A stretch of 64,000 nt of DNA, from the NCBI RefSeq assembly GCF_021155765.1, contig NC_060111.1:4058481-4122480 (forward strand), given 5' to 3'. The stretch's first letter is position 1. Each line of letters begins with the position of its first letter. The DNA comes from Diprion similis. Lineage: Eukaryota > Arthropoda > Insecta > Hymenoptera > Diprionidae. Below the pieces are notes generated by a model that was given only the letters and a program-made list of their open reading frames with translations, did no database searches and had not been told where the DNA came from. Below are positions 1,669 through 25,700 of this stretch, piece by piece. A program made the position numbers and the translations under genes.

Positions 1669-3661
1669 TTATGTAACTTCACAATAAATATGTTCTGAAA
1701 CATCGCGCTCTGTGGTTTGAAGCACAGGCTCCTTAGCTTTGATACTGTATACATTTGGCATAAATCCAACGTCGTCATATGTAGGTTCTGGGTCATCTAT
1801 AATTCGAATGCCGAAATGAAATTGAATAATGCAAATGAAATATGAATACGTATGGTGTTGAGAATTTTCATTCATTGCAAGAAGTTAAACAATTGATTTC
1901 CCATTTTGAATCAACGTTGAACATCGATACTTAAAATGAGAAAATGGATTGAACGTTGATTTGGGTTTTTCTTCTGGTGAACACCATGAACAAGTCTCAC
2001 TCTCTCTAATCGTTTGCCAACTTACCGTTTGTTGTGTTTTTCGATTTTTCTCTTAGTCGGCTGATATACCCGAGGCGGGTTATTCCAATTAGGAAAAGAG
2101 TTGCTCCTGCAAGCAGTACTCCTGCTATCAAGTTGCTATGTTTTTCCAGAAATGACAGTTCAGGTTTCGTGTTATTGCACCTTACATCTGGAAATATAAA
2201 AGGAAGATTAATAATTAGCAAATGCGCTGTGGCATAACTTGTGATGTTTATCATTACCAATTCCACCATTATAAGGGATCAAATGGTAAGTCACGTTTGC
2301 TCCAGACTTAGTAGAATGGAAAGCGTGCATCAGGAGTTCGTCCGGACAATTTATACCGCACGCAGGCACGGTTCGCGCAATTTCAGAATAGTTAGTTTCA
2401 TCATCAGTGCCCATTGTCAATAAAAGATTGCTGTAAGCGTTGCAAAAACATAATCAGATGAGTATTTTATATTCACAATTCTGGTAATGAAAAAAAATTT
2501 ATTCGCGTGCTAATCCTTAAATTATATGCTCAACATGCAGAAAGAAAAAATCAAATCATTTTTCAGAAACTCATCAAACTGCACTTGGATGCACCCTGCT
2601 AGGATGGGCGGGAAAAGTTCTCTCCACGTTCAGTGCAACCATCAAGTCAGGTTACAGGTTCTGAGGAATCGTCCATAACGCAAATATATCCGTGCTCACC
2701 TGGCTGGCGTATCGTCAGAATGACTCTCGGGGACCAAGGAAGCAACTACACATGCGAGTGGCTCGTCGCAAGACGGTCCGTTCCAGCCATCGTTGCAGAG
2801 GCATTCGTCAGGAGCTACGCATCTTCCGTTGGCACAGCCTTTTTTGCATTCCGGCAAGCAGCTGGTGCCGTTACCCACGTAGCGAGGCATGCACACGCAG
2901 GTGTTTGGCTTCTGGCACCATGCATTCTCCGCGCAAGAAGGGTTGCATTTTGGCGAACACTTGGTTCTGTCAGCACTAAATTTATGTTCATCATCGCACT
3001 GACTCCAGAAAATTGATATCCGATATTCAGTTTCACATACAGAAACGCATTTCTTCGGGTTTTCACTACAGCCACAGGTACGTGGTTTTTGGCAATTTTG
3101 GCAGCCTCTGGAATATTGTGCCACACAATTTCCACTTTTGTTTTCGTAGCCTCCGCAGCATGTCCTGTTCAATCTGAACGCCTCGTATGTCTATGACAAA
3201 AAGGATAATTCAAAGGTAATCGCATGGATACTTACGAAGAATCGACTCGACAAAGATTCGACGTCGCTACGCGAAAAGCTTTTCTCGCCTCATTTATGTA
3301 GTTCGTGCGCGTCTTAACGCAGGTGAAGAACAACCAACATCTCTCGTAGTAGGTCTCTTTACACGGAATAGAACGCGATGCGTTATAACTGAAAAAAATA
3401 CACCATCTCAAACAACGAACTTATCAAAGTGCCATTTTCAGATCATAAAGGAAATTTCTTCCTCTGAAGAAACTTGTAACAAAACATTCATAAAAAACCA
3501 AAGATGGTTGACTTATTGCTAGGCACTGACGGTTGTGGAGAACTATTTTTTCACCTCTCTCGTTCGTAGCATTCGCCACTAATATCTGCCATGATTCCGG
3601 AACACATCAAACATCCAGCAACCAACGCAGTCGCTGTCCATCTGACACTTTCAACCATCAT
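1669..3661 (-). CDS. Short Nimrod-type receptor A (signal peptide, NIM/EGF repeats, one TM)
   Basis: Six coding exons on the minus strand: 3555-3661, 3289-3388, 2700-3190, 2258-2430, 2026-2187 and 1669-1796, giving 386 codons plus stop in frame. Exon 1 is a hydrophobic signal peptide. The CCGGY motif at about residue 80 is the hallmark of the NIM domain, followed by about three Cys-rich EGF-like repeats ending NGPSC. Exon 4 carries a juxtamembrane PACGINC module. The TM segment is about residues 310-328. The tail has several tyrosines (YDDV, VYSI, IYCEV). The family is known for phagocytosis and bacterial binding by blood cells. Oddities: the donor of exon 2 reads GC (3287-3288) where the near-identical gene A' has GT, and a conserved tyrosine in exon 2 (IPYKETY in A') is cysteine. 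The repeat exon is almost identical to A', while the TM and tail exons are not. Function is inferred from family. Confidence 0.82.
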
Positions 3662-4850: not shown

Positions 4851-5649
4851 GAAATATTGTGAATCAAAAATGAATGTAAATTGAAAGAATTATAAATGCA
4901 TCGTTTTTTTTTTATCGTGCATTAATTTTTACTCCTTGTCCTTTTCTTTCTGATCAATTTTCAGTAGAAAGGTTCATTTTCATCGACGTTTAGTCCATTT
5001 CTTAAAACTATGACTCCTCAAAAGTGAGCCAATAATCAACTTACCAAAAATCGTTCAACCTTACAATCCATGATTCTGTAATCCAACCCGAATCCTTACA
5101 CAAATTCTGCCTTCGATTTGACGTTAGGCTAGCTACGAATGTTCCTTACTTCTATCACTGTATATTCAAAAATATTAAATTTGGAACGAATTTTGAACCA
5201 GCGACTGTGTGGTTGAATAATTATTTACAAATAGCGAATCCATACACCTTACAGATAACGATATTTTTGAAAATTAAAATAATTCGAAATTGATTATCTT
5301 AGGATTTGCAATACATTTTTTATTACTACGTTTCATTAATTTCCTTGATATATTCTATTACATGATATGCATTTCCGGCGATAATGTTGAATCACGGCGT
5401 AGATCCAATAATGGAAAAGGCTCTTCGAGTCGTCTTACATTATCACTCATAAGTGTGAGGACAAATACCATGTTGAAGTACGAATGATACTTTATAAAGA
5501 GACGAAAATCTCACGTGATGACCGAGGCTCAAATTACATATTACAGGACACATACTTAATTTCGTGTGTAATTAATTCTAATTAAGGCGTGCTTCCTCAT
5601 CGTCCGTTGAGAAATCCTACCACAACCACATCGACAAGAAAGGAATTCT

Positions 5650-7715
5650 TTAGTCCTCCGTTGTGATGGTTGCGTAAGTGTGATTATCTTCCAAGAATTC
5701 GTTGCTGGTATATTGTACTATTTTATCTGTAACCAACGGAAATTTTACATTCGATCCACTGTGGCATAAAAAATATCCTTTCCAACGAACAATAAGGATA
5801 AATTTTTATCTGTTGTGATCTTTCGATCGATAACACAGTGAAATATTTAAGCAAGAACTTACCATTCAGCCTACTTTTTGATCTTCGCTTTTGCTTCACG
5901 ATATTTGCAAAGTAGAAGATCCCTATAATTGCCAAACTTGCTAATATTCCTAGCAATCCTGCTGCTATCCCTTTGTTATATTTTTCAAGAAATGTTTCAT
6001 CTGATTCAGTCGTACTGCAGTTTGTATCTGAAGATATAAGATTTACGTCACTTGTAGTATGGAAATACGTCAACTTAACTATAGGAATATTAACGGAAAA
6101 TAAAAATCAACATAGTTTTCACGAATTAGTCGCAAAAATAAAGTCACAAGTGCAACGTTCAACATCATTCCTTCACTAACAGATGGAAGTCACGTAGTAC
6201 GTCAGGCCATGGGTCGTTGGAGTTGGGATGTAATAAGCAGCATTTCTACAAAGTTCTTCAGGGCACGTTTGACGGCACGCAGGCAATGTCTCTATGGCAT
6301 AAGAAATACTTCCGGTGCAGGTGTTGGTCTGTATTGCAGGCATTTCCACAACGGATGGATTAATGGTTCTGCAAAATAACGATGAGATGTCAATTTGCGA
6401 TTTGGTAGTTTCACCCACAAAAACGTAACATTCTTCAACCAATCCGTCTGGAAAAGTTTTTTCTCATAACGAGAAATAAAAAGCGTAATTTCCTGATTTC
6501 AAAGAAATTATTATTCAAAAACAAACCACCAAATCACTTCTTGACATGCGTTACTTTGGAACATGGTTTCACCCTGTTAAATTGTTTAATAGCAAAATTG
6601 TTTAATATTGTTTAGTCTACTGTATAACGTCGTACAAAAGAAATTAAATTCGAGACTATCGATCTGGGATACTCGTCTTGTAATTAATCATGTTTTATCA
6701 AACAACGAACCACTTCCGGGAGAAGTTGATTCGCTGAAGAGACAGTTATCAAACTAACCGGGCATTGACCTTAGCTTTCTTTGTCTTGGGGCGAAGCACT
6801 TTCAGGATAATAAATTACGACAAAAATGGTGTCCGAGGCACAAGTAACTATCAATACTGAAATACCTATTTGTTACGGGGACAGGAGAGGCGACTAAGCA
6901 TACTAGCGCTTCTTGACAAGATGGTCCGTTCCAGCCACAGTAGCAACTGCAATTATTTGGAGACTTGCATATTCCGTTGACACATCCTTGCTTGCACTCT
7001 GGTAAACATGCTGTACCGTTACTCACGTAGCCATCCATGCATGTGCATGTTTTTCTATTTTGACACCATTTTTGGTACCGCGATTCCGTTTTCTCGTCCT
7101 TGTAACAATTTCTGCATGTCTGCAAACATTCCTCTGGCTTGTTGAAGTTCTTCTTTGTGCAGTCGCAGGTAAACGGCTTTTTGCAATTAGAGGAATCTGT
7201 GCAGGTTCCATTCACGTTCTTAAATCCATCGCAGCACGTTTTTTCCAATCGATACATCGTGTATGACTGTTACAGAAATCGTTATTAAATCGAGCTAAGA
7301 CTTGTGACGAATGAATTTTTTTCCATATTCATGGTTATACCTCGTTTATGTAACTCGTATGAGATTTGAGGCATGTAAAGAACAGCCAACACGTTTCGGT
7401 GTAGGTCTTCTGATAGGGGATCAAACGTGTTTCTGAATTCCTGTGAAATGAATGTACGATAAACATGAAATGGGGGGATTTGATTGGAAGAAAAATAATT
7501 CACTAGGGTATAAAATAACGCTACCAATCAATCAGAGACACAGAGAATTCGATTCTTCATTCTTGAAAAAACAGGACATGAAACTAAAAATCTTATATCA
7601 AACCTCACCCCACTACGTCATGGCACACTGTATGGCTATCCATTGTACAAACGAAGCACACCAAGCATCCCATGGCCAAGAAAGTCGCGGTCCATCGGTA
7701 AATCTTGACCGTCAT
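5650..7715 (-). CDS. Short Nimrod-type receptor B (signal peptide, NIM/EGF repeats, one TM)
   Basis: Six coding exons on the minus strand: 7609-7715, 7341-7440, 6866-7266, 6181-6368, 5863-6027 and 5650-5726, 345 codons plus stop, all junctions in frame. Exon phases match gene A. Exon 1 is a signal peptide ending in VCFVCTMDS. CCDGF at residues 80-84 is the NIM motif; two to three EGF-like repeats follow, ending NGPSC. The juxtamembrane exon carries LPACRQTCPEEL. The TM segment is about residues 286-307 and is followed by a basic stop-transfer stretch (KQKRRSKSR). The tail holds VQYTSN and HTYATI tyrosines. The donor of exon 3 is weak (gtattt). By family this is a blood-cell surface receptor for microbes or apoptotic cells; the ligand is unknown. 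Confidence 0.82.
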
Positions 7716-8985
7716 CGTGTTATTTTTCACCGAAGTCAAGAGTTTCAAGACCTGAAAGTAAATGCTTTGCAGGATCGAAAATGAAAAATGTCTGGTTGAT
7801 TGAGTCTCACCCCTCCCACCATGAGCAAGCGAGGATGAATTACGTCTTGCGCAGTTAGTAAGTGACGCTCAAAGATACTAGAAATCTCTTACCATATTCT
7901 GTGTCTGACTCGATGTCAAATATAACGGGTGAGATTAGAATTAATATTTTCGTTAATCAATCACTTAATGATTTGTGAAGGAATACAGCGCAATCGACGA
8001 ATCATCACTTCTCGCAATCGCCGCGTGAAAAATCCGTCATTTTCTTATTTTCAGAGATATTTGTTGAATACGATGCAGAAACTCCTGAGCTCCGTAACAG
8101 CTACGCCATTTTCTTCCGGTATTTCACATCTGTTGACGGCTCTGTTACGAGAGAATCTGACAAACTTACGGCGTCGTTTTCGAGGAAGCTGCTTAGTTTT
8201 TTCGAGGGGAAGCAGCCCTATTGAGAGAGTCGATTGTATAGAGTTTGGAACTACTAGAATCATCGTTTTGAACAAGGAAAAGGACTGCAACAATGAGAGA
8301 ATCTAAATAATCTAATGCATTTGTCTATTTTATATTATTTATGATGTTAACTCATAGAGTGGAAGATTTTGGATAATATTATGTTGGTACAAGAATTATA
8401 TTTCACTTCATTGTCGTCGATTTTATACTGTGACATTGTTTCTTATAATGATAAAATGCTATTCCAAAGAAGTAAAATAATAAATTATCGCATGAATTCA
8501 GTAATTCAGCAAACGCAGGGCAGATCTTGTTGAGTTACCGTTTATCGATGCGATTGGTGAAGAATTATATAAACTTATTCAATGATTTTGAATTCTACTT
8601 GACAATGAGTATGATAATTGACAAATTAAGTGACGCAAATTTCACGTAGCAACTTTAGGTTAAATTTTAATACGATGCTTGATTAAAAATATACTTCTTC
8701 ATTGGGAACTACGAAGAGTCGAATTCATGTCGAAGGTTTTCTTTTCACTTTACTCATTTGACTTCGGTGAAACTGAATCGAAATGAACCGCCTTATTAAT
8801 GATTATATGACCAACATTTGAGGGGTGAATATTACAATAGATAATTTCACCAAAGTTCGAAATTGCACGAGAGAAACCGCGATCACCAAGTTATTTGATG
8901 AAATCTATGGCTTTGTAAATGAGATGTACTATTTCGACCATATGCCGATAGAATAGAAAATCAATAGTCAGTAGCAGTCTGAGTA
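7716..8985. other. Intergenic between B and A', inside left palindrome arm
   Basis: No convincing gene. All nine differences I found between the palindrome arms fall within 7575-8425, partly in this stretch. A minus-strand open segment 8170-8284 has acceptor- and donor-like ends but no family resemblance. Confidence 0.5.
7804..7820 (-). promoter_or_regulatory. Degenerate promoter-proximal element of gene B
   Basis: Gene-strand GGTGGGAGGGGTGAGAC, 89 bp before the ATG of B. The GGTGGGAG half matches the shared element of its paralogues; the GATA half is mutated to GTGA. Confidence 0.4.
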
Positions 8986-10869
8986 TCACGAGCAGGCTTC
9001 GTAGAGTAAATTTTCTGTGACGTATACGTTGCTGGTATATTGGACTATATTATCTGAAATCCAGAAAAAATTGGTACATGATTGAAAAAATTAGGGGAAT
9101 TGAATGGTGTAAAGGTGACTGAAAATTTTATGTTTTTCATGATTTGCAACAACATGAACGGTATTCGGTCTTCAGAACATTGATCAACTTACCGGTTGAC
9201 ATGTTTTTTGATTTTTCTTTTCCTCGACGGGCATTCATTATTGTGCAAGTTATTCCTACTATCAAGAATGCTATTCCTGCAAGACTTACTCCTGCTATCA
9301 CATTACTGTGTCTTGCTAAAAACGACCGCCCAGATTTTGTGTTATTGCACCTTACATCTGGAACTATAAAAGGAAGATTAATAATTGGCAAGTGCGCTGC
9401 GGTATAACTTGTGATGTTTATCATTACCAATTCCACCATCATAAGGGATCAAATGGTAAGTCACGTTTGCTCCAGACTTAGTAGAATGGAAAGCGTGCAT
9501 CAGGAGTTCGTCCGGACAATTTATACCGCATGCAGGCACGGTTCGCGCAATTTCAGAATAGTTTGTTTTATCATCAGTGCCCATTGTGAATGAAAGATTG
9601 CTGTAAGCATTGCGAAAACATGATCAGATGAGTATTTTATATTCACAATTCTGGTGATGCAAAAAAATGTATTCACGTGCTAATCCTTAAATTATATGCT
9701 CAACATGCAGAAAGAAAAAATCAAATCATTTTTCAGAAACTCATCAAACTGCACTTGGATGCACCCTGCTAGGATGGGCGGGAAAAGTTCTCTCCACGTT
9801 CAGTGCAACAATCAAGTCAGGTTACAGGTTCTGAGGAATCGTCCATAACGCAAATATATCCGTGCTCACCTGGCTGGCGTATCGTCAGAATGACTCTCGG
9901 GGACCAAGGAAGCAACTACACATGCGAGTGGCTCGTCGCAAGACGGTCCGTTCCAGCCATCGTTGCAGAGGCATTCGTCAGGAGCTACGCATCTTCCGTT
10001 GGCACAGCCTTTTTTGCATTCCGGCAAGCAGCTGGTGCCGTTACCCACGTAGCGAGGCATGCACACGCAGGTGTTTGGCTTCTGGCACCATGCATTCTCC
10101 GCGCAAGAAGGGTTGCATTTTGGCGAACACTTGGTTCTGTCAGCACTAAATTTATGTTCATCATCGCACTGACTCCAGAAAATTGATATCCGATATTCAG
10201 TTTCACATACAGAAACGCATTTCTTCGGGTTTTCACTACAGCCACAGGTACGTGGTTTTTGGCAATTTTGGCAGCCTCTGGAATATTGTGCCACACAATT
10301 TCCACTTTTGTTTTCGTAGCCTCCGCAGCATGTCCTGTTCAATCTGAACGCCTCGTATGTCTATGACAAAAAGTATAGTTCAAAGGTCATCGCATGGATA
10401 CTTACGAAGAATCGACTCGACAAAGATTCGACGTCGCTACGCGAAAAGCTTTTCTCACCTCATTTATGTAGTTCGTGCGCGCCCTAACGCAGGTGAAGAA
10501 CAACCAACATCTCTCGTAGTAGGTCTCTTTATACGGAATAGAACGCGATGCGTTATAACTGAAAAAGATACACAATCTCAAACAACGAACTCATTCAAGT
10601 GCCATTTTCAGATCATAAAGGAAATTTCTTCCTCTGTAGAAACTTGTAACAAAACAATAATAAAAAACCGAACACGGTTGACTTTGCTACTGATTGTCGT
10701 ATAGAAAAATTTTCATCTTGGAAAACAGTTTAACACACTGCGTGATAAATCTGCGATTTTACCTCTTTCGTTCGTAGCACTCGCCCTCTCTATCTGCCAT
10801 GATTCCGGAACACATTAAACATCCAGCAACCAACGCAGTCGCTGTCCATCCAACACTTTCAATCAGCAT
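8986..10869 (-). CDS. Short Nimrod-type receptor A' (tandem paralogue of A)
   Basis: Six coding exons on the minus strand: 10763-10869, 10459-10558, 9870-10360, 9428-9600, 9193-9357 and 8986-9053, 367 codons plus stop. Same architecture as A: signal peptide, IPYKETYYERC pre-NIM exon, CCGGY at about residue 80, three EGF-like repeats, PACGINC juxtamembrane module, and a TM segment at about 310-331. The tail IVQYTSNVYV...LLYEACS resembles that of gene B rather than that of A. The exon 2 donor is a normal GT, unlike A. The exon 3 sequence and its flanking intron are essentially identical to A at an offset of 7170 bp, which suggests recent conversion. The protein is identical to that encoded by A''. 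Confidence 0.85.
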
Positions 10870-12171
10870 CGCAGTTCCTTTTATCGCATGCAGCACTGTC
10901 ACAGGCTAATTACAAATGAAGCAGAGCAAGGAAACTGGCAAGCTTGTGGTGCGTTGAGCCTTATCTTTCCCACCATCACCGAGTAAATATGTGTGAAGTC
11001 CAATGTCATTTCCGGATGACAGTCAATGATATTACGTGGAATAATCTTCACGATACTTTGTCCCTGAATTCTCTCCCTGATATCTCGCATCAAAGATGAG
11101 AGCCAAATTTCGGTAACACATAAAGTGTGGAAAATCAAAAATCAAATATTCGTAACACACTCAGTGTTTTCATAAATAGTTGTCCTTAAACACTGATCGA
11201 TAATTATTAAATTAATGGCTGAAGAATATTTGCGAGAGTTGACGCACGAGGTAACTGAGCGTTGGTTTATCGTTAATGCGGTTTACAAAGTATGCTGGTA
11301 GCTTGCGGTAGTTTATATTTAAACCATAAGACAAGCCAAGCTTGAGATCACGCAAGAAATTTTCAACCATAATACGTAGAAAATCGTGAACTTCAATTTA
11401 TTTCTTAACGTTCTTTCAACGTCATTTGGTTAGAATGATGAAATCAAGAATACTAAAAAAACTGTCCCGCCTAGTCAGGAAAATAAATAATCATCTTTGT
11501 GCATTATAATCGTACAAATTTTCACTCAAAACCAAAACGTCTGTTCAAGATCAAATCAATACCGTTTATAAAATCGATTGTTTAGAATGTAACAAAATCT
11601 ATATTACACTTGAGAATTTACCAGACAATTTTGTTAATCAATACATGTTCATAGTTAAAGAAACGAATGTTTAACAAAACAGTTTTTTACATGTCTGTAG
11701 AAAAATTAAATCGTTTGACATTCATTCGACGAATTTTCATTATACAAAACTACCTGGTCACGAGTATTGTCCGAATATCCTGTTCTCACATATTATATTT
11801 TACATTTGTAATAAAATAGTAAGAATCCAAAGAGAATAAAGTCGTTTCATAAACCAATTATTGCGAAATTAATAAAAACAATGTGGGTGTCACAGGAAAT
11901 TGGTTACCAATTTCAACTTGTAATTAAGTAGCTAAAGTAGATCACTAATTGATATTCAGTTTTGTCAGTGAACGGTGAGAACAAAAATTCTATGTCGAAG
12001 GTATAGCTGATTCTATGTTTTAAATCACTATAAATCAAACTTCCATTTCTCGACTGACTACTTATTTTGTAATATTTTTTTCATCAGTAATTGGCGTAGT
12101 GCCGATTTTTAGAACTGACGAAGTAATCGGCACGCCTTATTTTCGAATGTCAAAATTTCGGAAAAAACATA
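10870..12171. other. Intergenic between A' and palindrome centre
   Basis: Left-arm sequence without a recognisable gene. Contains the A' promoter element and a small hairpin, GTGCCGATT at 12099-12107 against AATCGGCAC at 12125-12133. Confidence 0.5.
10959..10974 (-). promoter_or_regulatory. GGTGGG/GATAAGG promoter-proximal element of A'
   Basis: Gene-strand GGTGGGAAAGATAAGG, 90 bp before the ATG. It contains a consensus GATA-factor site (GATAAG). The same element with the same spacing precedes C, D and E. Regulation by a blood-cell GATA factor (Serpent-like) is inferred. Confidence 0.6.
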
Positions 12172-12204
12172 TCGTCCAATGACGTCATCGAAAATGGGGA
12201 TCAC

Positions 12205-12399
12205 CTACCACTCCCAGTGGCCATAGGAAGTGTATTTTCCTCGGTGTATTCGTTGGCCATAAATCGCGTCGGTGCGTCTAAAAGCCACAGAACTTGAGTG
12301 TGAACCAGCGATTAGAATTGGGAGGAGGAAAAAAATTAAATTGAACCATATCACCCAAAGCGAGAAAAGTGAGTTGGGGACTGCGAAAACGGTTGCCAT
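12205..12399 (-). CDS. Hypothetical small secreted/membrane protein, copy 1 of 3
   Basis: 64-codon frame starting MATVFAVPNS, with a long hydrophobic core (about residues 11-30) that reads as a signal peptide or signal anchor, then a polar tail ending GHWEW. A TATA-like run (TATATATAAGG) lies about 70 bp upstream on the coding strand. The frame could also be a first exon, because a donor-like gtaggt overlaps its stop. The same frame occurs at 12922-13116 and 18044-18238. I do not recognise the family; it may be a captured first exon or chance. Confidence 0.35.
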   Translation of the reverse strand: MATVFAVPNSLFSLWVIWFNLIFFLLPILIAGSHSSSVAFRRTDAIYGQRIHRGKYTSYGHWEW

Positions 12400-12571
12400 T
12401 TTTATTTATGGAAATTGGACGAATATGAAAGACTTACGTATGTGCAGATAATATTTCCGTAGTTGCCTTATATATATACGACGATAAATTATTACAGCCG
12501 TGACACGTCATTGCTTTTCACAGACACCATTTGAAGGATAAAAGTTTTTTTACAGTATGGGCATTGAAAAG

Positions 12572-12749
12572 CAAAACGAAGAGTGAGGTTATGTCGCGAT
12601 CTGTTCGACGAAGCTACTTTATAAGGCAGTTTGGGATGCGCACTTCGAACTGCGCATCAAAACTGTGGAATAAAGACTTTATTCCGCAACTTTGTTCGCT
12701 GCCGTATAAAGCGTCACTTTACGGAACGAAAACTGCCACAAAAAGTGAA
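12572..12749. repeat. Palindrome spacer (hairpin-rich MITE-like core)
   Basis: Single-copy spacer of 178 bp between the arms. It is bounded by a 26-bp inverted repeat (12546-12571 and 12750-12775; gggcattgaaaag near the inner end) with one mismatch. It contains nested hairpins: a perfect 19-bp palindrome GGAATAAAGACTTTATTCC, a GGATGCGCA/TGCGCATC stem and a CCGTATAAAG/CTTTACGG stem. It occurs again in inverted orientation within 18385-18614. Confidence 0.75.
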
Positions 12750-12842
12750 CTTTTCAATGCCCATGCTGTAAAAAAACTTTTATCCTTCAAATGGTGTCTG
12801 TGAAAAGCAATGACGTGTCACGGCTGTAATAATTTATCGTCG

Positions 12843-12854
12843 TATATATATAAG
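12843..12854 (+). promoter_or_regulatory. TATA-box-like run before the small hydrophobic ORF
   Basis: TATATATATAAG 68 bp before the ATG at 12922. The same run occurs before the other two copies of this ORF. Spacing suits a short 5' leader; promoter function is inferred only. Confidence 0.35.
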
Positions 12855-12921
12855 GCAACTACGGAAATATTATCTGCACATACGTAAGTCTTTCATATTC
12901 GTCCAATTTCCATAAATAAAA

Positions 12922-13116
12922 ATGGCAACCGTTTTCGCAGTCCCCAACTCACTTTTCTCGCTTTGGGTGATATGGTTCAATTTAATTTTTTTCCTCCTCC
13001 CAATTCTAATCGCTGGTTCACACTCAAGTTCTGTGGCTTTTAGACGCACCGACGCGATTTATGGCCAACGAATACACCGAGGAAAATACACTTCCTATGG
13101 CCACTGGGAGTGGTAG
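12922..13116 (+). CDS. Hypothetical small secreted/membrane protein, copy 2 of 3
   Basis: Mirror copy of the frame at 12205-12399 in the right arm, identical in translation. The 85 bp upstream include a TATA-like run, and the start context is aaaaATGg. The family is not recognised. Confidence 0.35.
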   Translation: MATVFAVPNSLFSLWVIWFNLIFFLLPILIAGSHSSSVAFRRTDAIYGQRIHRGKYTSYGHWEW

Positions 13117-13149
13117 GTGATCCCCATTTTCGATGACGTCATTGGACGA

Positions 13150-14451
13150 TATGTTTTTTCCGAAATTTTGACATTCGAAAATAAGGCGTGCCGATTACTT
13201 CGTCAGTTCTAAAAATCGGCACTACGCCAATTACTGATGAAAAAAATATTACAAAATAAGTAGTCAGTCGAGAAATGGAAGTTTGATTTATAGTGATTTA
13301 AAACATAGAATCAGCTATACCTTCGACATAGAATTTTTGTTCTCACCGTTCACTGACAAAACTGAATATCAATTAGTGATCTACTTTAGCTACTTAATTA
13401 CAAGTTGAAATTGGTAACCAATTTCCTGTGACACCCACATTGTTTTTATTAATTTCGCAATAATTGGTTTATGAAACGACTTTATTCTCTTTGGATTCTT
13501 ACTATTTTATTACAAATGTAAAATATAATATGTGAGAACAGGATATTCGGACAATACTCGTGACCAGGTAGTTTTGTATAATGAAAATTCGTCGAATGAA
13601 TGTCAAACGATTTAATTTTTCTACAGACATGTAAAAAACTGTTTTGTTAAACATTCGTTTCTTTAACTATGAACATGTATTGATTAACAAAATTGTCTGG
13701 TAAATTCTCAAGTGTAATATAGATTTTGTTACATTCTAAACAATCGATTTTATAAACGGTATTGATTTGATCTTGAACAGACGTTTTGGTTTTGAGTGAA
13801 AATTTGTACGATTATAATGCACAAAGATGATTATTTATTTTCCTGACTAGGCGGGACAGTTTTTTTAGTATTCTTGATTTCATCATTCTAACCAAATGAC
13901 GTTGAAAGAACGTTAAGAAATAAATTGAAGTTCACGATTTTCTACGTATTATGGTTGAAAATTTCTTGCGTGATCTCAAGCTTGGCTTGTCTTATGGTTT
14001 AAATATAAACTACCGCAAGCTACCAGCATACTTTGTAAACCGCATTAACGATAAACCAACGCTCAGTTACCTCGTGCGTCAACTCTCGCAAATATTCTTC
14101 AGCCATTAATTTAATAATTATCGATCAGTGTTTAAGGACAACTATTTATGAAAACACTGAGTGTGTTACGAATATTTGATTTTTGATTTTCCACACTTTA
14201 TGTGTTACCGAAATTTGGCTCTCATCTTTGATGCGAGATATCAGGGAGAGAATTCAGGGACAAAGTATCGTGAAGATTATTCCACGTAATATCATTGACT
14301 GTCATCCGGAAATGACATTGGACTTCACACATATTTACTCGGTGATGGTGGGAAAGATAAGGCTCAACGCACCACAAGCTTGCCAGTTTCCTTGCTCTGC
14401 TTCATTTGTAATTAGCCTGTGACAGTGCTGCATGCGATAAAAGGAACTGCG
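13150..14451. other. Intergenic, right palindrome arm
   Basis: Reverse complement of 10870-12171. Nothing recognised apart from the A'' promoter element. Confidence 0.5.
14347..14362 (+). promoter_or_regulatory. GGTGGG/GATAAGG promoter-proximal element of A''
   Basis: Mirror copy of the A' element (GGTGGGAAAGATAAGG), 90 bp before the A'' ATG. The inverted gene therefore kept its putative control site. Confidence 0.55.
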
Positions 14452-16335
14452 ATGCTGATTGAAAGTGTTGGATGGACAGCGACTGCGTTGGTTGCTGGAT
14501 GTTTAATGTGTTCCGGAATCATGGCAGATAGAGAGGGCGAGTGCTACGAACGAAAGAGGTAAAATCGCAGATTTATCACGCAGTGTGTTAAACTGTTTTC
14601 CAAGATGAAAATTTTTCTATACGACAATCAGTAGCAAAGTCAACCGTGTTCGGTTTTTTATTATTGTTTTGTTACAAGTTTCTACAGAGGAAGAAATTTC
14701 CTTTATGATCTGAAAATGGCACTTGAATGAGTTCGTTGTTTGAGATTGTGTATCTTTTTCAGTTATAACGCATCGCGTTCTATTCCGTATAAAGAGACCT
14801 ACTACGAGAGATGTTGGTTGTTCTTCACCTGCGTTAGGGCGCGCACGAACTACATAAATGAGGTGAGAAAAGCTTTTCGCGTAGCGACGTCGAATCTTTG
14901 TCGAGTCGATTCTTCGTAAGTATCCATGCGATGACCTTTGAACTATACTTTTTGTCATAGACATACGAGGCGTTCAGATTGAACAGGACATGCTGCGGAG
15001 GCTACGAAAACAAAAGTGGAAATTGTGTGGCACAATATTCCAGAGGCTGCCAAAATTGCCAAAAACCACGTACCTGTGGCTGTAGTGAAAACCCGAAGAA
15101 ATGCGTTTCTGTATGTGAAACTGAATATCGGATATCAATTTTCTGGAGTCAGTGCGATGATGAACATAAATTTAGTGCTGACAGAACCAAGTGTTCGCCA
15201 AAATGCAACCCTTCTTGCGCGGAGAATGCATGGTGCCAGAAGCCAAACACCTGCGTGTGCATGCCTCGCTACGTGGGTAACGGCACCAGCTGCTTGCCGG
15301 AATGCAAAAAAGGCTGTGCCAACGGAAGATGCGTAGCTCCTGACGAATGCCTCTGCAACGATGGCTGGAACGGACCGTCTTGCGACGAGCCACTCGCATG
15401 TGTAGTTGCTTCCTTGGTCCCCGAGAGTCATTCTGACGATACGCCAGCCAGGTGAGCACGGATATATTTGCGTTATGGACGATTCCTCAGAACCTGTAAC
15501 CTGACTTGATTGTTGCACTGAACGTGGAGAGAACTTTTCCCGCCCATCCTAGCAGGGTGCATCCAAGTGCAGTTTGATGAGTTTCTGAAAAATGATTTGA
15601 TTTTTTCTTTCTGCATGTTGAGCATATAATTTAAGGATTAGCACGTGAATACATTTTTTTGCATCACCAGAATTGTGAATATAAAATACTCATCTGATCA
15701 TGTTTTCGCAATGCTTACAGCAATCTTTCATTCACAATGGGCACTGATGATAAAACAAACTATTCTGAAATTGCGCGAACCGTGCCTGCATGCGGTATAA
15801 ATTGTCCGGACGAACTCCTGATGCACGCTTTCCATTCTACTAAGTCTGGAGCAAACGTGACTTACCATTTGATCCCTTATGATGGTGGAATTGGTAATGA
15901 TAAACATCACAAGTTATACCGCAGCGCACTTGCCAATTATTAATCTTCCTTTTATAGTTCCAGATGTAAGGTGCAATAACACAAAATCTGGGCGGTCGTT
16001 TTTAGCAAGACACAGTAATGTGATAGCAGGAGTAAGTCTTGCAGGAATAGCATTCTTGATAGTAGGAATAACTTGCACAATAATGAATGCCCGTCGAGGA
16101 AAAGAAAAATCAAAAAACATGTCAACCGGTAAGTTGATCAATGTTCTGAAGACCGAATACCGTTCATGTTGTTGCAAATCATGAAAAACATAAAATTTTC
16201 AGTCACCTTTACACCATTCAATTCCCCTAATTTTTTCAATCATGTACCAATTTTTTCTGGATTTCAGATAATATAGTCCAATATACCAGCAACGTATACG
16301 TCACAGAAAATTTACTCTACGAAGCCTGCTCGTGA
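14452..16335 (+). CDS. Short Nimrod-type receptor A'' (inverted copy of A')
   Basis: Six coding exons on the plus strand: 14452-14558, 14763-14862, 14961-15451, 15721-15893, 15964-16128 and 16268-16335. It encodes the same 367-residue protein as A' with no coding difference seen. It is the only complete plus-strand Nimrod gene in the window; its orientation follows from the palindrome. All splice sites, the signal peptide, the CCGGY motif, the juxtamembrane module, the TM segment and the tail are intact. The upstream GATA element is also present, so expression is plausible. If the palindrome were an assembly fold-back, this gene would not exist. Confidence 0.78.
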
Positions 16336-17605
16336 TACTCAGACTGCTACTGACTATTGATTTTCTATTCTATCGGCATATGGTCGAAATAGTACATCTC
16401 ATTTACAAAGCCATAGATTTCATCAAATAACTTGGTGATCGCGGTTTCTCTCGTGCAATTTCGAACTTTGGTGAAATTATCTATTGTAATATTCACCCCT
16501 CAAATGTTGGTCATATAATCATTAATAAGGCGGTTCATTTCGATTCAGTTTCACCGAAGTCAAATGAGTAAAGTGAAAAGAAAACCTTCGACATGAATTC
16601 GACTCTTCGTAGTTCCCAATGAAGAAGTATATTTTTAATCAAGCATCGTATTAAAATTTAACCTAAAGTTGCTACGTGAAATTTGCGTCACTTAATTTGT
16701 CAATTATCATACTCATTGTCAAGTAGAATTCAAAATCATTGAATAAGTTTATATAATTCTTCACCAATCGCATCGATAAACGGTAACTCAACAAGATCTG
16801 CCCTGCGTTTGCTGAATTACTGAATTCATGCGATAATTTATTATTTTACTTCTTTGGAATAGCATTTTATCATTATAAGAAACAATGTCACAGTACAAAA
16901 TCGACGACAATGAAGTGAAATATAATTCTTGTACTAACATAATATTATCCAAAGTCTTCCACTCTATGAGTTAACATCATAAATAATATAAAATAGACAA
17001 ATGCATTAGATTATTTAGATTGTCTCATTGTTGCAGTTCTTTTCCTTGTTCAAAACGATGATTCTAGTAGTTCCAAACTCTATACAATCGACTCTCTCAA
17101 TAGGGCTGCTTCCCCTCGAAAAAACTAAGCAGCTTCCTCGAAAACGACGCCGTAAGTTTGTCAGATTCTCTCGTAACAGAGCCGTCAACAGATGTGAAAT
17201 ACCGGAAGAAAATGGCGTAGCTGTTACGGAGCTCAGGAGTTTCTGCATCGTATTCAACAAATATCTCTGAAAATAAGAAAATGACGGATGTTTCACGCGG
17301 CGATTGCGAGAAGTGATGATTCGTCGATTGCGCTGTATTCCTTCACAAATCATTAAGTGATTGATTAACGAAAATATTAATTCTAATCTCACCCGTTATA
17401 TTTGACATCGAGTCAGACACAGAATATGGTAAGAGATTTCTAGTATCTTTGAGCGTCACTTACTAACTGCGCAAGACGTAATTCATCCTCGCTTGCTCAT
17501 GGTGGGAGGGGTGAGACTCAATCAACCAGACATTTTTCATTTTCGATCCTGCAAAGCATTTACTTTCAGGTCTTGAAACTCTTGACTTCGGTGAAAAATA
17601 ACACG
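16336..17605. other. Intergenic between A'' and truncated B'
   Basis: Mirror of 7716-8985. No convincing gene. Includes a degenerate B promoter element at 17501-17517. Confidence 0.5.
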
Positions 17606-17980
17606 ATGACGGTCAAGATTTACCGATGGACCGCGACTTTCTTGGCCATGGGATGCTTGGTGTGCTTCGTTTGTACAATGGATAGCCATACAGTGTGCCA
17701 TGAAGTAGTGAGGTGAGGTTTGATATAAGATTTTTAGTTCCATGTTCTGTTTTTTCAAGAATGAAGAATCGAATTCTCTGTGTCTCTGATTGATTGGTAG
17801 CGTTATTTTATACCCTAGTGAATTATTTTTCTTCCAATCAAATCCCCCCATTTCATGTTTATCGTACATTCATTTCACAGGAATTCAGAAACACGTTTGA
17901 TCCCCTATCAGAAGACCTACACCGAAACGTGTTGGCTGTTCTTTACATGCCTCAAATCTCATACGAGTTACATAAACGAG
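17606..17980 (+). pseudogene. Truncated copy of receptor B (exons 1-2 only)
   Basis: Plus-strand mirror of B exon 1 (17606-17712) and exon 2 (17881-17980), with signal peptide and pre-NIM segment intact. The palindrome ends at 18015, 35 bp past the exon 2 donor, so the NIM, juxtamembrane, TM and tail exons are missing. Four base differences from B lie in or next to exon 1; one changes Asp to Glu (HDVV to HEVV). A transcript could only make a secreted stub unless it splices to new downstream sequence. Confidence 0.7.
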
Positions 17981-18043
17981 GTATAACCATGAATATGGAA
18001 AAAAATTCATTCGTCCAATGACGTCATCGAAAATGGGGATCAC

Positions 18044-18238
18044 CTACCACTCCCAGTGGCCATAGGAAGTGTATTTTCCTCGGTGTATTCGTTGGCCATA
18101 AATCGCGTCGGTGCGTCTAAAAGCCACAGAACTTGAGTGTGAACCAGCGATTAGAATTGGGAGGAGGAAAAAAATTAAATTGAACCATATCACCCAAAGC
18201 GAGAAAAGTGAGTTGGGGACTGCGAAAACGGTTGCCAT
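18044..18238 (-). CDS. Hypothetical small secreted/membrane protein, copy 3 of 3
   Basis: Identical in translation to the frames at 12205-12399 and 12922-13116, with the same upstream TATA-like run. Family not recognised. Confidence 0.35.
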   Translation of the reverse strand: MATVFAVPNSLFSLWVIWFNLIFFLLPILIAGSHSSSVAFRRTDAIYGQRIHRGKYTSYGHWEW

Positions 18239-18384
18239 TTTTATTTATGGAAATTGGACGAATATGAAAGACTTACGTATGTGCAGATAATATTTCCGTA
18301 GTTGCCTTATATATATACGACGATAAATTATTACAGCCGTGACACGTCATTGCTTTTCACAGACACCATTTGAAGGATAAAAGT

Positions 18385-18614
18385 TTTTTTACAGCATGGG
18401 CATTGAAAAGTTCACTTTTTGTGGCAGTTTTCGTTCCGTAAAGTGACGCTTTATACGGCAGCGAACAAAGTTGCGGAATAAAGTCTTTATTCCACAGTTT
18501 TGATGCGCAGTTCGAAGTGCGCATCCCAAACTGCCTTATAAAGTAGCTTCGTCGAACAGATCGCGACATAACCTCACTCTTCGTTTTGCTTTTCAATGCC
18601 CATACTGTAAAAAA
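18385..18614. mobile_element. MITE-like fold-back element with 26-bp terminal inverted repeats
   Basis: Termini at 18385-18410 and 18589-18614 are inverted repeats (core acagYatgggcattgaaaag) with one difference: C in the left copy, T in the right. The interior is a cluster of hairpins. No open frame for a transposase and no clear target-site duplication was seen, so it would be a non-autonomous element. Confidence 0.6.
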
Positions 18615-18619
18615 TATTG

Positions 18620-18748
18620 TATGTGGCATGCCCGTTAACCGTTTTTTGGCTCGGATAATTTCAGTACTCGCTTCCGGCTCGCCTTCAGCTCGTCCTGAAA
18701 TCTTTATCCTTGTCAAAAAAACAGGCGGTTTACGGACATGCCACATAA
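18620..18748. mobile_element. Small MITE-like element with inverted termini
   Basis: Ends form an imperfect inverted repeat: atgtggcatgcccgttaacc on the left pairs with ggtttacggacatgccacat on the right (about 19 of 21 bases). About 130 bp in total, with no coding capacity, directly beside the previous element. Confidence 0.45.
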
Positions 18749-19180
18749 ATAGCTATTGCTTTTCGAGCGTCTTGTTTATCTTAACAAACTGTTGCTCGAC
18801 GCTTAACAGTTTTTGCTTCAGTTCTGACAAGATGAATAGCTGAAGCTATTGAGGGGTATTGCAAAAATGCTTAGACCGTTAGCATAAACAAGAACGAGCG
18901 TTCTCCAAAACTGGGTAAGAGATAATAAAAGATTTGGAGTAAAATATAAAAACGGCTGAGAATTAAAATGTAAATACTGTAAATGTATAAAAAGAGTTGT
19001 CAAATGAAATATCAATACATGAAATGAGGTAGATCATCCAAAATAAGTGTAATATTTAGGAGCGTTAGGCGTCGAGGATGTGACAATAAATGTGAATAAA
19101 TTACATATGTATAAACAATGAATAATATTAAATTTTCCATGCGTGTGTTGATAAATCTTGAGATAACAAAACAGTCCGTT
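18749..19180. other. Intergenic, 3' side of gene C
   Basis: AT-rich, no gene seen. Includes the 20-bp match (18798-18817) to 1127-1146. Confidence 0.5.
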
Positions 19181-21739
19181 TCACGAATAAATATCATTTT
19201 CTACCATACGGTCGAAGTATACGCATTTTTCTGGTTCATCTGAAAGCATGTGATTTCGTTATGCATATATATATAAAAGTCAGAAATTATAAAGAACATG
19301 TTGAGTAATATTTAAAAATCGTTTAAAATTTTAACAATAACTATCAAAATTTTTGGAATATATGATTTTCCAAATAATCGAATAAATTTTTGCAAAATCT
19401 GACGTGCAACAATCTTACTGTGTTCCTTGTTCCTTGTTTTGGCTCTTTTTTTTACGACAATAATGATGCAGACGAAAATTAAGATAAATAGAATTCCTAT
19501 CCCAGCCCCGATAAGGTATTTTTTGTTTTTCATGACGAAAGCCTCAGCGGAAAGATTGCACGGTTCGTCTGAATAGGTAAAAAACAAGAAAACAAATTAC
19601 ATGAAAATTTTCTGCAGCTCAATTATAAGTGAAAATTGACATGCAGTGTCATAACAATTAACACATGTCAGAAAATACTTTCAATGCAAAGTTAACTTAA
19701 GCAAGTTGACGATGCTAGGATTTTACAGAATTTTACTCACTAACCGATCATAATCAGATCGTCCATTTGCTCGGGTCTTTCAACGAGCTTTATACTGCCA
19801 TACTTGAGTTGGTCGAAACATTCCGGCTTACAAATTGGTCGGTCCGTCATAATTTGATAGTCATTCGTTGTATAATTCGTTCCTCTCGAATCTCCCTGCG
19901 CACTGCGAGTGTATCGCAAACATGATAAATTATTGTTTGATTGTGATGCCTCGACGTAGGCGAAATAATAGAATTCGAATGAGCAATATCCTCAGTGTCA
20001 TACAACTTGCTAATTGCATGTTGTAACGATGAATAATTCTACAAGGAAACATATTGAAAAATATAGAGAAAAAAAGAAGAGATAGATAGATAGATTCATA
20101 GACATTCTATTCTTGTCCATAAAAATATTGTCCATAACAATAATTATATTTTAAACACTTTGTGCTGTCCATGAAACCTCGCAACGTGTACGAAAAAAAT
20201 TAGAATAATTATTATTCTAGCACTGCCTTGCAGAGCATAGAACTCTGTTTTTTTCATCGGAATTTACGTCACGGATTCTTTTGATATCGATTATCGAAGT
20301 GAAAATTCCTGCGATCTTCTTATTTCTGCTCTTTATCGAAATTTACGGATGCATATAATTGAGAGCATACGTCGACATGCACTCTGATTAGTTATATTTC
20401 TATTATTAGTTATTAGACACATTTATAACTTATTTTGAATCATTTCAGCGGCGGAAAAACCAACTACTCACTTTGTTATGTGTGTATAGTTATGAGGATT
20501 CTTGATGACGCACAAAAGTGACTCGGTACAGGATTTCCCCGTCCAATCAGGAGAGCAATCGCATCTTTTATTAGAGCACCTGCCATGCTTACACTTCGAC
20601 TCGCATGCAATGCAGCTTCCTTTATTATTTTTGGGATTGCCGAATCCTTTATCGCAGTGGCAAGTCTCAGGGCCAACGCAGGTACCCTTGCCGCATCCTT
20701 TACAGACCGGATTGCAGGTTGTCGCATTCTCAAAGACTTTCTCGTACCCCGGAAGACACTTACAGTAATTGGGACCGGTACATGTTGCAAATTTGCACTC
20801 TGGTTTGCACGTTGGACGAGTGCACTGGCCATTTTTATTTTTCGTGTAGCCGTCCTCGCACTTGCAGGTATCAGGTACAACGCATCTGCCATATCCACAT
20901 TTTTTCGTGCAATTTAAAACGAAACACTGACCATATTCATTCTTACGGTAACCGTCGAAGCATTTGCACGTATTAGGACCAACGCATTCGCCAAATTCAC
21001 ACTTCGCATTACAAAACTGACCGTATGTAACGTTGTTTTTAGTTAGATCCTCTTTGCAGGATTCCGGATAGATGCAAACTTTTCCATTACATCGTTTCTC
21101 ATTACATATCGGTTCGCAAGTTCGTTGGTTCGAACTTAATCTGTAACCTTCGTCGCAGGTACAGAGTTGCGACTCATTGCATTCCCCAGACTGGCAGGGC
21201 CTGCACTTTGGATGGCAGATGAAGCTATTGGTTTGGGACTTGATGTATCCGTCGTTACACTTGCATTCGGTGAGACCCTCGCACTTTCCGTTAATGCAGT
21301 TGTCCGGTGAACAGGGTTTCAAACAATTTTTGTGGACGCTGTCTCTCGTAAAGTGGTCAGCAGAGCAATCACCGTCTTTCGAACGTTTCGTCAAACTTCT
21401 TGTCTTCGGATTGTCTCTGTAGCCATTATGGAGAAATGTTTCCTCACCATAACGCTGTGTTTTTTCTAGGTAAGTCGCGCGCTGTAAAATGTTATAAAAT
21501 CCTTTCGTACTGAAAAATAAAATGTATGAGAAAATTGGTTTAGATAGCTAAAACACCGCATTATAAGGATGAAAAATCGCTTTTCGCGTTTTCAAGGACT
21601 TGCTTATAAATTTTCAGATAACGGTTTACCTGCCAGTCTTTCTAGGTACTAAAAGGTGGCTATCTTGTTGAACACTTGATTTTACCGTTGAAAACACGGT
21701 AAACACTATCACTATCCTCAAGTTGACTTGAACCGCCAT
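19181..21739 (-). CDS. Nimrod-family receptor C, eight repeats, lacking the CCxGY motif
   Basis: Five coding exons on the minus strand: 21630-21739, 20472-21509, 19745-19902, 19419-19568 and 19181-19239, 504 codons plus stop. Exon 1 encodes a signal peptide (RIVIVFTVFSTV). The large exon has about eight Cys-rich repeats of the form C-x-G-x-C-x-x-P-x-x-C-x-C-x-x-G-[YF]. The juxtamembrane exon carries PICKPEC. The TM segment is about residues 455-474, and the tail contains EKCVYFDRM and NDIYS. Unlike its neighbours it has no CC-x-G-[YF] NIM signature and no separate pre-NIM exon: the first intron leads straight into the repeat exon. For the juxtamembrane exon I chose the acceptor before tgcgcagg, since the next AG gives a frame with a stop. 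Confidence 0.8.
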
Positions 21740-22755: not shown

Positions 22756-25700
22756 TTACGCATCCTCCAGAGTATTTCTTGAGCTGTCATCCCATATGCA
22801 CTGTGTCGATCCACCTGAAAGAAAAGAAATTTATCAGCTATAATATAGAATGCGAAAAACGTGCTTTTTTCACAAAAAATTTCGACGGATAGTAAAACTT
22901 ACTTTTCACCATTTGCCTCGGTTTCCATTTTCTTCTCGTGACGTATGCTGCACAAACAACCATAGCGAATATTAAAACTCCAATTCCAGCTCCTATCGCG
23001 CTGCTGTGCGCTTTCGAGGTCTTCGTATGAAGAGTGAGGATGTTGCACGATGAGTCTGAAAGCACAACAACAAACGATTTTCTCGAAAATTTCATGACGA
23101 ACAGTTCACGGAAGCAAAGGAACAGAGGATCTTATTATAGGAATGTTCACCTGCCTTACCAATGGATATGAAGTGGTAAACCGTGTCCATGGAAAATTTT
23201 GTCAAGTTAATTGTCAGGTTGGCAACCTCGTTGGAACATCCTGATCGACACGATGGTACGCCCCACTCATTTCCAGGGCTTTCACTCGTGACCGTGGTTC
23301 CATTAAATGCCGGAAGCTTGCTAAAAATGTTACGAAAATGCATTGAATTGATTATCTCTAATGATATTCCGAAAGCTGAGCTTACCAATTTTGGAACATT
23401 AAAGCTAGAGCTTCCTGTCTGGAATAATAAACAGCGATATCAGGCAGATGTCATTGTTTAAAAATCAGACTCTCCTTCGCATATAATCAGGAAATCGAAT
23501 CATATAAGATTCTTATGATAAAACAACCGATCACCTAAAATCGAAAGAAATAAAAATTTCCAGGATGCAAATAGGGAGTCGTACTCTCACCTCATTCCCT
23601 GAACAGAGTTTCCGTGATCTGGCAAAGCGATAACACAGAACAATGGCTGATCGCAAGAGCTCCCTGTCCATCCAAGAGAGCACAGACATGACCGATCAAG
23701 AGCGCAAGAGCCATGGATGCAGCGTGGCTGGCAGGTGAGTCGACAGATTCCAGGGTCCTGCTCGTCCTTGACAAAAAGACCTTGGCACTCGCACTGGCCA
23801 GGAGCAACGCAGGAGCCATTGACGCACTTTTCACAGACAGGCTCACAGATGTTCGACTTCACATCAGACTTCTCATATCCTTCAAAGCACTCGCAACTGT
23901 CAGGACTGCCACAAAACCCGTTGACACACGGCTTCGTACATACAGGTTGACAGTCCTTAGTATCATCATCGAGCTTAAACCCAGCGCCACATTCGCAGAC
24001 ATTGGGACTGACACAAGCACCGAAGGCACAGGGTGGCTCGCAGCGTGGTTCACAAGTGAAGACGTCGTCCTGGGATCGCTGGAAGCCCTCCTTGCACTCG
24101 CACTCGTCAGGCCTAACGCACCGTCCGTTGACGCAGGACGACTCGCAAACGGGGTTGCACCTGCCATCCTGGGTCTCGTTGTATCCCGGATCGCATCGGC
24201 AGACGTCGGGCTCTGCGCAGAAGCCGTTTTCGCAGTCCTTCGCGCAGACCGGTTCGCAGGTACGATTGACTAAGCGGTAGCCTGCGCGGCATTCGCATAC
24301 TCCGGGAGCCACGCAGGTGCCGAGGAAGCACCCCTGCTCGCAGATAGGCTCGCAGACGGACTGGTTTCCACCGCTTTCGGATAGTTGAAAGCCGTCTTTG
24401 CAGGGGCTGCAAATATCGGGAGCGATACAACGCGTTTCGCACGGGATTTTGCAGGCCGGAACGCACTGGTCGTGCTCGTTTTTCTCGAAACCTGGATTGC
24501 ACTCGCAGACGTCAGGCGCTGCGCATCGTCCATGATGGCAGGGGAATCCACAGACCGGTTTGCACGTGTGACCGTCAGAACCAAGCTCGAAGCCGTCATT
24601 GCAAGTGCACTTTTCCGGCGCGGTGCAGTTCCCAAAGACGCAAGTTTTGCTGCAGCGTGGCTCGCAGGTAAAGACATTCAGTTTCGACGGCTCGAAGCCT
24701 TCGTCGCAGCCGCAGACGTTGGGCCCGACGCACTTTCCGTTGACACACTTAGGGCTGCACGTCGGAAGACACTTGTTATCGTCGCTCTTCGCGTAACCGA
24801 CGTAGCAGGTGCAATTGCCGGGGCTAGTGCACCATCCGTTTTCGCAACCAGAAGGACACTTGGGTTCGCAAGTCTTGTCCTCGGCGTTCCACTCGTAACC
24901 CTCGTTGCAGGTGCAGGTGTTTGGAGCGGTGCACTTTCCGAAAAGGCAGGACTTCTCGCAGGCCGGAAGGCATTTTGACAAAAGAGTAAGCTTTGTGTAG
25001 CCCTCGTTGCACTCGCACGTATACGGCTTGGCGCAGTAGCCATTCTCGCATCCCAATAGGCAGCGTGGCTTGCAAGTACCATTCACATCGGTGTAACCAA
25101 CGCAGCATGTATCTTCTATTGACCGCCACATGTAAGGCTGTGAAAGGATTGAACATGTGTGGAGGAATTAGAATCGTAGAGTTACCTTCCGGAACAAGAA
25201 GTAATCGTTGTATTCCTACCCTCATTCTGTAGTTGGTACGCAACCTTGGTCGTCGATTGAAAATGAACCCAAGCCTATAATCTGTATCATGATAATACTC
25301 GTGGTATGGAACGTAATGGGGCATCCTAGAACTGAGAAAAGTTTGCGTGGATTTGGTGAAAATTTGGAACGGTTTTTGAAGCGAGTTTATTTTTCTTACC
25401 ATTGAGATTTTACATTAATGATAATTGTCTTGAGAGAAATAAAAACAATGACCGTAATGCGAGTTAAGAGAAATAATGAAAATCAGAACGACTTCTAGGA
25501 TTTTGAAAATCTGACTTTTCCCCGTCTAAATCATGGATTCTCACTGGAAATAAAGAACTAGAATTGAAAGTGTGTAAAATCAAACTGTCTGTGCGTTTAT
25601 GATGATGCTTATAAATGCGGATCATTGATGTTTCATAATAATAATGTTTTTTTGACTTCCAAAGGTAAAAAAAACGAACGGTGTTTCGAAACGTCAGTCA

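Follow-up and report, generated by a model that had tools for sequence, protein, structure and literature searches.

A palindrome of about 10.7 kb lies within a cluster of receptor genes in the stretch of the Diprion similis genome analyzed here, a 64,000-nt sequence that we refer to as the window. The palindrome duplicates and inverts one complete receptor gene together with the beginning of a second. Probably, though by no means certainly, it is a real and young germ-line rearrangement: the arrangement of the sequence suggests that it arose by template switching while DNA was being copied, with a transposable element that forms a hairpin as the seed.

The symmetry of the palindrome can be followed base by base. 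When position x is paired with position y such that x + y = 25321, 5,277 of 5,355 positions are complementary, whereas the 24 neighboring sums give only 1,378 to 1,514. These counts confirm the axis and the 5.27-kb arms given in the preliminary description. The left arm (A; 7306-12571, plus strand) carries receptor A' and the start of receptor B (one exon or more), both on the minus strand, and the right arm (12750-18015, minus strand) is its inverted copy. Each arm measures 5,266 nt, and the two align without a single indel and are identical at 5,255 of 5,266 positions (>99%, 99.8%). The 11 mismatches fall at positions 7575, 7581, 7610, 7617, 8031, 8283, 8299, 8367, 8386, 8425 and 12556. Ten of these are substitutions, and the last, at 12556/12765, is a site at which the transposon's internal inverted repeat has, as a rule, one base in one arm and another in the other. 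The arms are separated by a 178-nt spacer (12572-12749), a fragment of a 372-nt repeated element; it runs in the opposite orientation to the complete copy at 18386-18757. The arm parts 7306-8306 and 10900-12171 have exactly two long matches each in the assembly, both within this window, and the flanks 5300-7305 and 18758-20400 have one full-length match each, plus short diverged repeats. A search of the assembly with the flanks and arm pieces found no second haplotype contig with the earlier arrangement.

Upon close examination of the right side of the palindrome, we noticed a third copy that had escaped the preliminary description, which had read the structure as a fold-back. The inverted duplication stands at base resolution, but a bare fold-back does not account for the third copy, the transposon-derived spacer or the orientation of that spacer. 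The third copy (18011-18622, plus strand) matches 12538-13149 in reverse complement except at 3 positions, which all fall at its right end within the last eight bases. It repeats 12172-12555 in direct orientation and then enters the element, which here has what we infer to be its original position and orientation, and differs from these sources at 0 of 384 positions (12172-12555) and at 0 of 210 positions (the spacer in reverse orientation). The segment 12172-12555 hence occurs three times, twice in direct and once, in the middle, in inverted orientation, and 7306-12171 occurs once in each orientation.

Two junctions delimit the inverted sequence. Junction 1 (12546-12555, plus strand) is a 10-nt switch interval, TTTTTTACAG, common to both ends of the element's inner inverted repeat, which is 34 nt long and whose left end (12538-12571, plus strand) matches 12750-12783 at 33 of 34 positions. 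Located at the element's end inside the hairpin, this junction has 10 nt of identity before the switch and 0 after it. Junction 2 (18011-18015, plus strand) is a 5-nt microhomology, TCGTC, that joins the arm's outer end (7306) to 12172; 5 nt are common before the switch, with no identity beyond. Short microhomology with nothing lost at the join, as a template switch would leave, is thus found at both junctions, with 10 nt at one and 5 nt at the other.

The sequence at the center of the palindrome belongs to a repeat family. With the spacer and its 34-nt ends as the query, 40 matches were scored among 677 first-look candidates in the assembly; two of them lie in this window, and those outside it are about 95-98% identical. 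The stretch 18600-18770, to the right of the third copy, is equally common in the assembly and adjoins a first-query match at several places. Together, 31 loci from the first query and the loci from a second query give a contiguous match from about 18386 to 18757, and in an alignment of 34 distinct copies (from 36 hits, excluding the window's own loci) the element ends sharply at these two positions. The complete element (18386-18757, plus strand) is therefore 372 nt long, with hairpin 1 at 18386-18614 and hairpin 2 at 18615-18751. Hairpin 1, its first 229 nt, folds with -52.8 kcal/mol (z -8.28), a value reached by 0 of 200 shuffles; hairpin 2 is a second inverted repeat, 71% self-complementary, which stops 6 nt before the element's end. 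No target-site duplication was seen by eye in 19 other printed copies and the window's copy. Helitron/Helentron-like non-autonomous elements make no target-site duplication and carry a hairpin near the 3' end, and the termini may resemble theirs. A search for known RNAs returned no Rfam match at the gathering threshold in the window, the spacer included.

The family alignment also reveals the order of events. The bases that fix junction 1 are features of the family, as 32 of 34 copies have C at 18395 and 33 of 34 have A at 18604; the element at 18386-18757 is thus in the family's standing arrangement, and the left end of the palindrome's center is of the other type. The window's element departs from the family consensus at 9 of 372 sites, 6 of which lie in the piece shared with the center. 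The center carries all six, which establishes that it was derived from this very insertion and that the element was present first. Both hairpin ends of the window's copy, moreover, carry a rare change, and the same combination is found in 1 of 34 other copies. Inverse copying of the flanks within about 1.5 kb of the element was seen at 0 of 35 other fetched loci (a few places being represented twice), so the idea that the element is a general hotspot lacks support.

To reconstruct the earlier arrangement, we removed 12172-18010 from the window. What is left would have run from the left flank through arm A (7306-12571) and the complete 372-nt element to the right flank. Inserting the reverse complement of this arrangement's 7306-12765 after its position 12555, and continuing from 12177, yields a 64,000-base sequence with 10 departures from the window, each of which is an arm substitution. 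Because the model takes its flanks, left arm and third copy from the window itself, its true test is confined to 12556-18010, that is, 5,455 nt. In terms of mechanism, DNA synthesis would have switched strand twice, once within 10 nt at the end of the 229-nt hairpin and once within the 5-nt microhomology that joins 7306 to 12172. The two switches would insert 5,460 nt of inverted sequence, after which synthesis would return to its original template.

The spacer provides a further constraint on how the switches could have been ordered. In reversed form it fits 320 of 320 bases, and in the form expected from a simple rightward fold-back only 184 of 320. We therefore rejected a simple rightward nascent-strand fold-back as the sole step, although it could be tenable again if the spacer had flipped afterwards. 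The observed orientation is permitted by a leftward order of synthesis, by a reintegrated inverted circle, or by a later spacer flip. In one possible order, which uses the full 34-nt repeat, leftward synthesis would reach 12172, change to the opposite strand and resume at 7306; arm A would then be copied together with the hairpin of the element, followed by a snap-back at the hairpin and synthesis onward to the left flank. Template switching between repeat arms is reported both to flip the spacer and to homogenize the arms (PMC8604942). The rare change at both hairpin ends of the window's copy is in keeping with a later spacer flip by switching of this kind.

From the established anatomy, the two junctions and the prior presence of the element, we tentatively infer that replication was responsible, in which direction it ran, and that the two switches belonged to a single event. 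In favor of template switching we count that the two junctions and 10 substitutions reproduce the window, that the hairpin is strong, and that the center comes from this insertion. Against it we count the clustering of the substitutions, the orientation of the spacer relative to a rightward fold-back, and the lack of inverse flanks at the 35 other loci. Template switching itself is a known mechanism, with which the locus fits; here one palindromic junction is still intact and unusually clean, with a transposon hairpin as the probable seed.

The substitutions between the arms are not spread evenly. All ten (7 transitions, 3 transversions and no indel) lie in a tract at 7575-8425, within the outer 1,120 bases, and the arm bases that follow (8426-12555) show 0 differences in 4,130. 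Since none of 200,000 random placements was as tight, one uniform age does not fit, and a further event is needed. We favor the view that one arm later exchanged its outer end with a chromosome bearing another allele, as would follow if the rearrangement segregates; the alternative is conversion between the arms that spared the outer end. Neither the window nor the 30 kb to its left yielded a paralogue of 7575-8425 that could polarize the arm differences, and no GC bias is evident by eye among the ten. On its fullest reading, which we consider less likely than not, the locus would present a transposon hairpin that seeded an inverted gene duplication and so produced a recent extra immune-receptor gene in a natural animal genome. 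A palindromic junction like those of origin-dependent inverted-repeat amplification (ODIRA) would remain intact beside an eroded or microhomology one, and the clustered substitutions would mean that the palindrome is still segregating, its outer end exchanged with chromosomes that lack it.

ODIRA, or a process like it, is a less likely but serious explanation of the same structure. It would first have produced a complete inverted triplication, bounded on either side by a palindromic junction; an asymmetric deletion at TCGTC would later have trimmed the left one and removed 7306-12171 from the third copy. Yeast ODIRA junctions form at pre-existing interrupted inverted repeats of 2-14 bp, mostly 40-80 bp apart, and secondary deletions in one arm are reported in 3 of 92 cases (PMC10766183). 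The inverted junction here likewise sits at a pre-existing interrupted inverted repeat, and an eroded second junction is a described ODIRA variant. From the ODIRA model, moreover, an inverted dimeric circle that integrates via either copy should leave the spacer either way, which fits the observed orientation. On the other hand, this route requires one extra step and an erased junction. The repeat, which lies inside a transposable element, is 34 nt long with one mismatch and has a spacing of 178 nt, well outside the sizes and spacings reported from yeast; there is no full triplication; and junction 2 is a 5-nt microhomology instead of a short interrupted inverted repeat, although trimming could have erased such a repeat.

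DUP-TRP/INV-DUP rearrangements at human disease loci, attributed to FoSTeS/MMBIR, have one junction in pre-existing inverted repeats and another that is a microhomology or blunt (PMC4352052, PMC10766186). Our locus likewise has an inverted copy beside direct copies, one inverted-repeat junction and one microhomology junction. By contrast, threefold copying is limited here to 384 nt (12172-12555) and junction sequence, and most of the arm is twofold. The inverted segment is therefore not threefold between direct duplicates, as 7306-12171 occurs only twice. The locus is also of kilobase scale, is inherited in an animal genome, and its center is still a close palindrome. Human inverted copy-number variants have been proposed to start as inverted triplications whose palindromic junctions later erode, and the limited survey in the same paper met no case whose palindromic arms were unambiguously intact (PMC10766186). 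Our locus thus looks like an ODIRA product that has eroded, or like the outcome of two switches, and belongs strictly to neither ODIRA nor DUP-TRP/INV-DUP. Large gene-bearing palindromes of sex chromosomes are similar in having arms that are >99% identical and a gene in each; unlike them, the palindrome in the window has a short spacer, a small size, a place in an immune-receptor cluster and a third, direct copy.

An artefact appears improbable, whether it be an inverted chimera formed in amplification or library preparation or a fold-back by the assembler that entered the consensus. The identity of the arms (99.8%, with no difference in the inner 4,130 bases) would be expected of such an origin, and amplified DNA does yield inverted chimeras with short microhomology. 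Yet a missed-adapter fold-back would center on the end of a read, not on an element's own inverted repeat, and two independent junctions here return exactly to single-copy flanks. Ten substitutions without an indel are unlike read errors or one chimera, a 34-nt repeat is probably too short to mislead long-read overlap, and the window contains no N. Weakest, and in our judgment very unlikely, is that arm-to-arm gene conversion has kept the arms alike while the outer end, far from the center, alone escaped: such conversion is described for palindromes of this kind, would leave >99% identity with differences at the outer end only, and agrees with ectopic conversion that seems active in the cluster (A and A' are identical at 2641-3203 with differing flanks), but the direct third copy, which is not a palindrome arm, is also identical (0/384, 0/210). 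A young event explains the identity of the arms and of the third copy together.

The arms carry the receptor genes with them. Exon limits of A' and B were read from open frames. Receptor A' (9137-10869, minus strand) has a signal exon with its ATG at 10869, a CCGGY/EGF exon at 10360-9869 and a membrane-span exon at about 9448-9137. Receptor A'' (14452-16184, plus strand), in the right arm, is an identical copy, since 8426-12555 holds no difference between the arms; a plus-strand A'' with the same protein as A' had already been claimed, and this claim is borne out. The palindrome had also been said to explain the only plus-strand Nimrod genes of the cluster, and indeed A'' alone is on the plus strand among 21 cluster matches to the A' ectodomain exon (C7:4040406-4089242). 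A'' would add a further intact receptor gene, which faces A' head to head and has 1.7 kb of its own upstream DNA, so a gain in dosage is likely. For receptor B, the 5' part (6802-7715, minus strand) comprises exon 1, which encodes a signal peptide and has its ATG at 7715, a probable exon 2 near 7437-7338, and a CCDGF exon at 7269-6802; a membrane-span exon lies near 6106-5723. Only exon 1 and the probable exon 2 are inside the arm, and the CC-motif exon is outside, so that the right-arm copy (17606-18015, plus strand) is truncated, as the preliminary description held. Two exon 1 residues of this copy differ as translated (D to E and G to R), from two of the ten substitutions. Cut off before the ectodomain exon, it is probably a pseudogene.

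The rearranged region also contains three identical copies of a 64-codon open reading frame, at 12214-12405 (minus strand), 12916-13107 (plus strand) and 18053-18244 (minus strand); the frame opens with a hydrophobic segment, and a TATA-like run lies 79 nt upstream. A fourth match in the cluster (C7:4048069-4048236) is 61% identical and has two stops.

The Nimrod superfamily is defined by a CCxGY motif and the NIM repeat pattern CxPxCxxxCxxGxCxxPxxCxCxxG[YFW]. The CC motif reads CCGGY in A, A' and A'' and CCDGF in B, and CCxGY is also present in three neighbors. Searched in its strict form, this NIM pattern occurs once each in A, A', A'' and B, and up to eleven times in 23590-25167; the neighboring frames 20471-21547 and 29696-30199 have neither CCxGY nor a NIM repeat in strict form. 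Judged by these motifs and repeats, the cluster is Nimrod-like. Pfam EGF models scored above their curated cut-offs in 4 of 10 tested frames, a set without A' (its frame being the same as in A and A''), and A, A'' and B fell below. Solved relatives of a neighboring 526-residue receptor exon are general EGF proteins only. The genes thus share with insect Nimrod receptors of the NimC/Eater type the CCxGY motif, the NIM-type EGF repeat, the membrane span and their clustering; they are unlike them in that A, A', A'' and B are short genes that each carry a single strict NIM repeat, and have Pfam EGF scores below the curated cut-offs. The literature listings that we searched contained no account of an inverted duplication of Nimrod genes, nor of an insect foldback element at which template switching had occurred.

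By the time inverted duplications are encountered, their junctions have usually decayed. Here, the inferred earlier arrangement, the junctions, the seed and the later substitutions can all be read. This makes several questions testable: whether hairpin-bearing transposons act as seeds of inverted copy-number change, how long an animal genome retains a kilobase-scale palindrome whose spacer is short, and what such events contribute to the number and orientation of genes in rapidly changing clusters of immune receptors. Should the seeding and the segregation both be true, it would be possible to trace the origin, stability and fitness effect of the palindrome in living populations. Transcription that reads through the 5.27-kb arms could, in addition, give rise to long double-stranded RNA against the receptor genes.

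Several further repeats came to light in and around the cluster. Receptors A (2641-3203) and A' (9811-10373) are identical over 563 nt, including the whole ectodomain exon, while their flanks differ; with 34 mismatches in 1,320 nt, a run of this length was not reached in 20,000 random placements, and the tract looks like ectopic gene conversion. The receptor exon at 20529-21536 has a 93% copy about 38 kb away (window -18163 to -17158) that contains a TGA stop. At C7:4048835-4058572 (window -9646 to 92; locus L062 plus the window's start) lies a tandem array with a 4,259-bp period, in which three receptor-like exons are equally spaced and neighboring copies are 98.0% identical over 5,485 nt. 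On the plus strand at C7:8150135-8175766, 4 Mb from the cluster, are three long EGF-repeat frames (815, 815 and 818 codons), about 12 kb apart. Other imperfect self-complementary stretches in the window are found at 42916-43102 (76%) and 44654-45207 (67%). Among the element's other loci, L014 and L035 contain second pieces of the element in inverted orientation, and L005 (2136-3105) holds a separate 970-nt palindrome, 97.7% self-complementary, about 400 nt from another copy of the element.
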